A program made the translations under genes and the position numbers. From NCBI GenBank assembly GCA_026397495.1, contig JAPLUS010000174.1, positions 1 through 15,236 of the forward strand: 15,236 nt of DNA. Direction: 5' to 3'. The notes beneath the pieces are model-generated. The model was not told the DNA's origin. It did not search any database and saw only the letters and a program-made list of their open reading frames with translations. Source of the stretch: Candidatus Zixiibacteriota bacterium. GTDB lineage: Bacteria > Zixibacteria > MSB-5A5 > GN15 > PGXB01. Positions 3,476-6,842 of this stretch are shown piece by piece (the first letter of the stretch is position 1; each line of letters begins with the position of its first letter).

Positions 3476-5569
3476 TTATTTCTTGATTATATTACCGTAA
3501 TCCATTGCGGCCAATTGCTTAAAGTAATTATACCTCTTAACAGCATCGGCCTGCGCTGTCTCCAGCAGTTTTTTGGAACGTTCCGGCATACTGCTCATCA
3601 ATGTCCGAAAACGGACTTCACCAAGGGCGTAATCGGTATAAGGAATTGAGGGCGCCTTGCTATCCAACTGGAGAGGATTCTTGCTCTGAGCCAGCAGTTC
3701 GGGATTGTAACGATAGAGGAGCCAATGGCCGGAATCGACTGCTTTCTTATGCTCATCAAGACCGTGAGACATATCAATACCATGAGCGATACAGTGCGAA
3801 TAGGCAATTATGATGGAGGGTCCTTGATACTTTTCGGCTTCGACAAAGGCCTTAACTGTCTGATTTTGGCTGGCGCCAATAGCCACCTGTGCCACATAAA
3901 CATTGCCATAGGACATCATCATCAGACCAAGGTCCTTCTTGGGGAGCGGTTTTCCCGCCGCGGCGAATTTTGCCACAGCTCCCATTGGAGACGATTTGGA
4001 CATCTGTCCGCCCGTATTTGAATAGACCTCGGTATCCAGAACCAGGATATTGACATTTCGACCTGAGGCCAGCACATGGTCTAAACCGCCGAATCCGATA
4101 TCATAAGCCCAGCCATCGCCACCGAAGGCCCAAACCGATTTCTTCACCAAATAATCGGTCATGGCCATCAATCTTTCGGCGTCCGGGCTACGCATCTTGG
4201 TTAATTTTTCCTTTATTTTGGCGACTTTGGCTCTCTGTTCTTCAATTCCAGCCTGAGTTGACTGGTCTCCATTGCGAATAGATTCAAAGTCGCCAGGGAA
4301 AAGTTTAGCTACCAGCTCGAGTGCATTTTCGCGCATTTTGTCAACCGCCAAACGGATCCCAAGAGCAAATTCCGCATTATCTTCAAAGAGTGAATTCGAC
4401 CAGGCCGGGCCGCGGCCATCGGCGCGAATGGTATATGGGGTTGTGGGAAGATTGCCGCCATAAATTGAGGAACAACCGGTAGCATTGCCAATTATGGCGC
4501 GATCGCCAAAGAGCTGACTTGCCAGTTTGATATAAGGTGTTTCGCCGCAACCGGCGCAGGCGCCGGAAAATTCAAAAAGTGGTCTTACTAACTGGCTCCC
4601 CTTAACCGTTTCAATATTATACAGCGAGGGATCAGTATCCGGAAGGGAAAGGAAGAAATTCCAGTTTTTGGCTTCCGGCTCTCGCAGAGGAAGCTGGGGA
4701 GCCATATTTATGGCCTGATGCTCAGTCTTGTTCCCCTGGGCATCCTTACCACCGAATACCGGACAGGCGTTGACGCAGGCCTCGCATCCGGTACAATCTT
4801 CCGGCGCTACCTGAAGGGTATATTTCAATCCTTCGTACTGCTTTGATTTAGCGTCGGCGGATTTAAAAGTCGAGGGTGCTTTTTCCAATAGCTTAGGCTC
4901 GTATATCTTCATCCTTATCGTGGCATGGGGACAGACAATGGAACAGATACCGCACTGGATACAGAGCTCTTCATCCCAAATCGGGATTTCAAGGGCGATA
5001 TTTCTCTTTTCGTACTGAGTGGTACCGGTCATAAAGGTACCGTCATCCGGCATAGCTGATACCGGCAGAGTGTCTCCTTTGCCCGCAATAATGGCAGCCG
5101 TTACATATTGAACAAATTTGGGAGCGTTCTTGGGAACCAGTGGAGGCATCTTAATCTGGCCGGTCGCCTTAGCAGGATAGTGAACCTCATAAAGGTTGCT
5201 GATAGCGGCATCGACTGAAGCATAATTCATCTCCACCACTTTTTCACCCTTATGTCCATAAGTTTTATTAAGAGCATCCTTAATAAACGCAATCGCTTTT
5301 TCCTTGGGAATTATATCGCTTATATGGAAGAAGGCCGTCTGCATTATGGTATTAATGCGGGCGCCCAGGCCAAGTTCTTTGGCCAGTTTGATAGCATCGA
5401 TTACATAAAACTTAGCCTTCTTATTTAGAATCTGGCGCTGGACTTCAACCGGAATCCTATCCCAGATTTCCTCGGGGCCAAAAGGACTGTTTAAAAGGAA
5501 CGTTCCCCCCTTAACCAAGGGCGTGAGCATATCGTATTTCTCCAGGAAAGAGAAATTATGACAAGCCAC
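3476..5569 (-). CDS. nifJ: pyruvate:ferredoxin (flavodoxin) oxidoreductase, C-terminal fragment (rest of gamma domain, Fe-S and thiamine domains)
   Basis: A 697-codon open segment carrying the C-terminal ~60% of a single-chain PFOR, which oxidises pyruvate with CoA to acetyl-CoA, CO2 and reduced ferredoxin. In order: the tail of the gamma domain (from ACHN), two 4Fe-4S motifs (C203, C206, C209, C213 and C259, C262, C265, C269), a third cluster region with CAGCGE (C338, C341), then the thiamine-diphosphate domain with [13 protein letters not shown] (about 483-495) and YSNTGGQ. All expected cofactor residues are present. The nominal start is a GTG at 5569 with no ribosome site before it. Homologous residues (PYLI..ANFVACH) continue upstream of that GTG to about 5605 in the same frame, and a TAA at 5621-5623 closes it. 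The segment is therefore best read as the second half of a broken nifJ, not an independent gene. Confidence 0.85.
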
Positions 5570-6842
5570 AAAATTGGCGGAACTTATTAAGTAGGGCCGG
5601 CGGATGAGCTTTTTGCAATTTTAGATTGTCCAGCACGGTTTTGGCCATCGCCGGATTGAATTCCTTTGAGCTTAACCCATAACGTCCGCCGACAACAATC
5701 GGATAACCCTTGAATGAGGTCATACCCGATTTGATCCCTTCGCTTAAGGCCGCCTGAATATCAACATAAAGCGGCTCGCCCACTGCGCCCGGTTCTTTGG
5801 TCCGGTCGAGAATGGCAATTTTTTTGACGGTTCTGGGAATCGCTTTCAACAAAGCTTTGACTGAAAATGGACGATATAATCTAACCTTGATTAAACCTAC
5901 CTTCTCGCCCTGTTTATTCAGATACTCAACCGTTTCATGCATCGTTTCAGAACCGGAGCCCATCATAATGACAATGCGATCAGCATTGGCAGAACCGACA
6001 TAATCGAATAGTTTATATTTTCGGCCAATTAGCTTGGCGAATTTGTCCATCTGTTTCTGGACGATTTCAGGGGTCTTCAGATAGTATTTGTTAACTGTCT
6101 CTCTGGCCTGAAAGAAAACATCCGGGTTTTGCGACGAACCCTTGAGAGTCGGATGATCCGGACTCAGGGCGCGCCCCCGATGCGCCTTTATCAAATCGTC
6201 ATCCATCATTGCCCGCATATCATTAAAATCGAACTGCTCCACCTTCTGTTCTTCGTGAGATGTCCGGAACCCGTCAAAAAAGTGGAGAAAAGGAACACGG
6301 CTTTCCATACTTGCGGCATGGGCGATCAGGGCCATATCCATTGCCTCTTGCACGGAGCCCGAAGCAATTAGTGCGAATCCCGTGGAACGGGTGGTCATAA
6401 CATCAGAGTGGTCGCCAAAAATTGAAAGAGCATGGGTTGCCACTGTGCGCGCTGAAACATGAAAAACTGTGGGCGTCATCTCTCCCGATATTTTGAACAT
6501 ATTAGGTATCATTAGGAGCAATCCCTGTGAGGCCGTGAAGGTTGTCGTCAAGGCTCCAGCGGTGGCGGCGCCATGAACGGCTCCCGAAGCGCCTCCTTCT
6601 GATTGCATTTCAATTACATTAGGAATCGTTCCCCAGATATTGGTTTCCCCGTCCGCTGATTTGGCATCGGCAATTTCCCCCATATTGGACGAGGGAGTTA
6701 TGGGATATATGGCAATAACTTCGCTCAAGGCGTGAGCCACATAGGCCGCGGCCGTGTTACCATCGATGGTAACCATTTTTCCATGGTGAGATGGCACACT
6801 CTTAACTGCCTTGACACCGGATTTCTTCACTTTCTTCACCAT
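5556..6842 (-). CDS. nifJ: pyruvate:ferredoxin (flavodoxin) oxidoreductase, N-terminal fragment (alpha domains)
   Basis: A 428-codon segment with PFOR domains I and [28 protein letters not shown], the [20 protein letters not shown] region, [35 protein letters not shown] and [11 protein letters not shown] are all family signatures. Homology ends near [10 protein letters not shown]. The remaining residues ([15 protein letters not shown]) are out-of-frame reading of the second half before a TAA. The next expected block of the family, running from the FTVGI-DDVT region to the SHLR-PI region (about 80-90 residues), is absent. The chosen ATG has GGAG 11 bases upstream and gives a basic 22-residue extension before the usual MVTIDG start; the internal ATG has no ribosome site. 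The gene is third in an operon behind rrf2 and dcd (57-bp gap). As sequenced it cannot make intact PFOR. Confidence 0.85.

Follow-up and report, generated by a model that had tools for sequence, protein, structure and literature searches.

A nifJ gene in two overlapping frames

The stretch of DNA analysed here (the window) comprises 15,236 nt and is contig C469 in its entirety; the draft genome to which it belongs (G000) totals 1.93 Mb in 473 contigs and is 78% complete. Its minus strand carries nifJ, encoding a one-chain pyruvate:ferredoxin oxidoreductase (PFOR), which is adjoined by dcd, rrf2, a FAD-binding/Fe-S oxidase gene, cobO and trxB, as is likewise the case in the relatives G003 and G007. 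Eleven of the twelve closest PFOR loci from named genomes belong to Zixibacteria or Zixiibacteriota records, a set from which the window's own genome was possibly left out.

Rather than one continuous open frame, nifJ occupies two frames in the window. The N-terminal frame (5556..6842, minus strand, 428 aa) encodes POR_N and most of PFOR_II and terminates at a stop codon at 5556–5558, its last 17 codons forming an out-of-frame tail beyond the junction. The C-terminal frame (3476..5620, minus strand) encodes positions 49–172 of the 173 positions of the POR domain together with the EKR domain, the 4Fe-4S motifs and the TPP domain. It opens at 5620, right after the stop at 5621–5623, and GTG 5569 is its candidate start. 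As described in an earlier reading of the sequence alone (the sequence-only reading), the two frames overlap only at 5556–5620, i.e., over 65 nt. The junction itself lies at 5610..5616 on the minus strand, where 5–7 nt can be assigned to either side; judging from the codons of relatives, these ambiguous bases would be AAAAA or up to GCAAAAA. The N-side homology, which had been thought to end at KAH, ends instead at ...LDNLKLQK, near 5610.

Compared with the G003 and G007 genes, the net loss is 260 nt in each case (about 87 codons), in agreement with the 80–90 missing codons and the frame shift proposed earlier. The suggested alignment of both halves to full-length PFOR proteins allowed the missing residues to be counted, the first half aligning with residues 5–380 and the second with residues 472–1169 of the Moorella thermoacetica enzyme (6cin). 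Across 29 relatives, the unadjusted gap between the halves spans 76–92 residues in 28, while the 29th yielded no pair of halves. The stretch from KNHF to RF measures 82 or 83 codons in the relatives where the pattern found the block, and 83 codons in seven same-family loci within L005–L018 (those readable by the script in the given strand).

Content and conservation of the missing block

Like the homodimeric PFORs of M. thermoacetica (6cin) and Desulfovibrio africanus (1b0p), the window's nifJ strongly matches domain I, most of domain II, most of domain III and domains IV (EKR), V and VI; it differs from them in lacking about 87 codons over the boundary between domains II and III and in changing frame there. 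Domain I is matched at positions 2–230 of the 231 positions of PF01855 (POR_N), and domain II at positions 1–81 of the 102 positions of PF17147, the residues thereafter being taken by the loss of the block. Domain III is incomplete, with PF01558 matched at positions 49–172 of 173 only, while the EKR domain, the 4Fe-4S motifs and the TPP C-terminal domain are all present. By the limits given for the D. africanus enzyme in an excerpt of PMC8945911 (domain II 259–415, domain III 416–627), the absent stretch corresponds approximately to residues 386–473, comprising about 30 residues from the end of domain II and 55–60 from the start of domain III. The sequence-only reading had assigned the lost part to domain III, which holds for its later part, whereas about the first third belongs to domain II.

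The motif GLGADGTVGANKNS (or GLGSDGT...) of the relatives falls inside the absent block. In the M. thermoacetica enzyme, domain III makes a phosphate-binding loop for CoA, according to the available part of PMC8091585, and the glycine-rich motif of the absent block may represent this loop. A protein without it would not be expected to work as a PFOR.

The block is a constant feature of related genes. Out of 109 related PFOR loci (some of them representing one genome twice), 104 extend across both flanks of the block, which is uninterrupted in every one of them; one locus (L100) has a frameshift in another part of the gene. At family rank, the closest one covered, it is present in all 14 other genomes, and no relative that naturally lacks it was found among the loci and genomes compared. 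Among the best 120 homologues, 115 match the block pattern; the other five are two partial proteins (752 and 785 aa) and three proteins of 1186–1206 aa. The intact nifJ genes of the Zixibacteria relatives G003, G007 and P0001 are approximately 79–84% identical to the window's gene in both halves and, unlike its two frames, form single open frames of about 1209–1214 aa. Nothing among the matches listed is closer than 82% to the C half or 85% to the N half, and therefore none of them is this species' own protein.

Stops were flagged within the PFOR match in five of 51 matching genomes (G046, G039, G035, G050 and G054), none of which is among the loci L005–L033 of the block comparison. In G039, no stop lies inside the aligned part of the PFOR. 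The PFOR gene of G046 (L116, C34) is interrupted by two in-frame TAA codons, at positions 432 and 795 in the aligned translation, and otherwise aligns from end to end; lesions in a PFOR gene are thus not unique to the window. A split nifJ in G004 (L118, L119) consists of pieces beside N runs; the scaffold is a single record, an overlapping C-terminal part lies 1 Mb off, and the contigs seem to have been joined in no particular order.

What remains of nifJ is well preserved. Measured against 58 full-length homologues, none of 138 invariant residues is altered in the N half and one of 225 in the C half. Furthermore, pN between the window's gene and either G003 or G007 resembles that of the G003/G007 pair, and synonymous sites are near saturation. 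Relaxed selection is therefore not seen in the remaining nifJ by either measure, although a very young lesion would not show in this way. Taken together, the sequence comparisons point to a lesion that is either very young or absent from the organism.

Neither a second nifJ, which the sequence-only reading had proposed to look for, nor the missing block was found in the readable part of the genome. Contigs shorter than about 3 kb are given as N (10 among the first 18 sampled and 28 of 60 overall), such that G000 is partly readable. Other POR-domain matches were rejected as PFOR and were read from their ORFs as IorAB (C436) and a KorABC-like set (C393). On C436 (L114, 1027–6405), the iorA/iorB-like genes have one butyrate kinase-like and two phosphotransacylase-like genes as neighbours (all named by reading), a gene set which suggests amino-acid fermentation. 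Pyruvate formate-lyase occurs in 10 of 20 genomes searched and was not found in the window's draft. The draft's other 2-oxoacid routes comprise genes of the E1 dehydrogenase family and the IorAB-like and KorABC-like genes (Ior and Kor names again by reading), and with these present, a loss of PFOR would be conceivable.

Further lesions in the window and the draft

Two more genes of the window are damaged. The FAD-binding/Fe-S oxidase gene (8243..10930, plus strand) is split by an in-frame TGA at 8723–8725. All 18 relatives read carry it as a single open frame of 750–964 aa, the low end of this range coming from partial matches, and at the TGA site 16 of 18 relatives have Lys or Arg. In its 5' part, 3 of 51 invariant sites are changed, the highest rate among 18 sequences (one partial relative having been excluded beforehand). 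Between cobO and trxB lies the remnant of an SDR-like gene (11511..11887, plus strand), named by an NCBIfam match under the curated cut-off, from which a net 678 nt are absent in frame compared with G007. Its counterparts are a protein of 294 aa in G003 and a 325-aa ORF in G007, and one stop was flagged in the alignment. Ahead of the last 11 codons of this remnant, a dispersed repeat of 166 bp (11685..11850, plus strand) is bounded by imperfect terminal inverted repeats (11684–11699 and 11836–11851). In G000 the repeat is matched 15 times, many of these matches being partial, and it is matched in five of 19 relatives, at most five times each; its single strand folds strongly (z -5.96). These properties suggest a small mobile-like element, and the SDR remnant with its dispersed repeat looks like real gene decay.

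For a survey of lesions, the window and the 32 readable contigs of 60 sampled (473 in total) were set against ORFs from 378 kb of G003 and 819 kb of G007. Places with at least three stops were taken for antisense shadow ORFs and left out, including two that had earlier been listed. Outside the window, three of 44 compared places are cut, each with a frame change: glmS lacks 34 nt (L187 347–2136, G000 C65), an ion-pumping pyrophosphatase gene lacks 100 nt (L187 2637–4702, G000 C65) and an AI-2E transporter gene lacks 89 nt (L142 263–1229, G000 C1). Lesions similar to that of nifJ hence affect core genes on other contigs of the draft. Here, glmS was named by TIGR01135, matched over the full length in G007, while the AI-2E name comes from an NCBIfam match under the curated cut-off and a Pfam match above its cut-off. 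No other copy of glmS or of the pyrophosphatase gene was found in the readable genome. By contig, three lesions lie in the window (that of nifJ included, with nothing else tested there cut), two on C65 and one on C1. In the control comparison of G003 with G007, 0 of 26 places are cut in each direction, probably involving much the same genes both ways. The difference between 3/44 and 0/26 is not significant alone (about 0.24 one-sided, by hand calculation), and the control is small. Among 29 larger ORFs scanned, the AI-2E transporter is the sole confirmed break, some others having partial profile matches; ten small ORFs of the sampled contigs had no Pfam match.

Origin of the nifJ break

The break in nifJ is probably artefactual, arising in the draft assembly or the library, and the PFOR gene itself is likely normal and functional. 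Two stretches would have been joined at a few shared bases, dropping about 260 nt of a functional gene, and the gaps of this draft would have arisen in silico or in vitro rather than in the cell. Short-overlap joining, a collapsed scaffold gap and an amplification chimera are candidate routes; the real organism would then make PFOR in the ordinary way. The sequence-only reading had expected enzyme activity to be lost, which for the organism is not supported. An artefact is the better reading because similar gaps are found in glmS, the pyrophosphatase gene and the AI-2E transporter gene and because nifJ shows no relaxed selection. Faulty joining or library chimeras are preferred since the gaps in core enzymes cluster on few contigs and the rest of nifJ is conserved. 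The identity of the genes cut (glmS and the pyrophosphatase gene) weighs more than the lesion counts. Bacteria that receive no amino sugars from outside require glmS; a free-living cell would hardly be expected to lose the sole readable copy of it. Pseudogenes made by assembly are documented and are commoner at low coverage, as stated in the available part of Cooley and Wright (2024; PMC11017572). The window's draft resembles the cases described there in being fragmented and in having frameshifts and internal stops in genes that are otherwise conserved. It differs in that the simulations in that part of the paper count frameshifts and internal stops, whereas the lesions of this draft are mostly deletions (34–678 nt). 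Against an artefact, a normal k-mer join would require a longer overlap than 5–7 nt, and the SDR remnant with its dispersed repeat and the changed invariant sites in the 5' part of the FAD oxidase gene would also be counted against it.

The 5–7 putative shared bases at the nifJ junction are compatible with joining over a short overlap, with an amplification chimera and with a true deletion by slippage. A true and very recent deletion in the sampled cells, either fixed or one allele of the population, would have abolished PFOR through the frame change and is a possible but rather unlikely explanation. The 260 nt may then have been lost between short direct repeats (AAAAA/GCAAAAA), either by illegitimate recombination or by slippage during replication. 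Besides the putative shared bases, a true deletion is favoured by the second large deletion with its repeat element in the nearby SDR-like gene, the nonsense codon in the FAD oxidase gene and the alternative 2-oxoacid routes in the draft. Yet glmS and the pyrophosphatase gene are also cut without another readable copy, the remaining nifJ is free of decay, and the deletion is common to no compared relative. More doubtful still is true early genome decay, in which many young deletions and a spreading inverted-repeat element would have accompanied the loss of PFOR, glmS and the pyrophosphatase; dependence on a host or partner would then be implied in a phylum, Zixibacteria, that is usually treated as free-living. 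Two readings that keep a working product fare far worse. It is very improbable that nifJ encodes a natural split or shortened PFOR made as two chains, even though 2-oxoacid oxidoreductases occur as one to several chains and the second frame has a possible start at GTG 5569. The second chain would be missing 48 of 173 POR positions at the start of that domain, the conserved glycine-rich loop among them, as well as part of domain II; no ribosome-binding site is seen by eye ahead of GTG 5569, and the block is kept at every comparable locus (104/104); moreover, domains I, II, III and VI are kept in PFORs of all gene arrangements, as far as the available part of PMC8091585 describes them. Programmed frameshifting or another form of recoding to a single product has next to no probability. 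The 65-nt frame overlap would speak for it, but the missing residues are encoded neither in the overlap nor elsewhere in the readable genome, and recoding was rejected given that the DNA of the block is absent from the contig. The sequence-only reading was right in holding that a ribosomal frameshift cannot rescue the gene.

The observation that nifJ is broken in the window is confirmed, while a biological loss of PFOR is unproven and less likely than an artefact. The absence of a working PFOR should consequently not be inferred from this draft, and its other truncated genes are likewise unsafe for metabolic claims before read mapping. If the lesions are real, the genome would represent an unusual case of ongoing gene loss.
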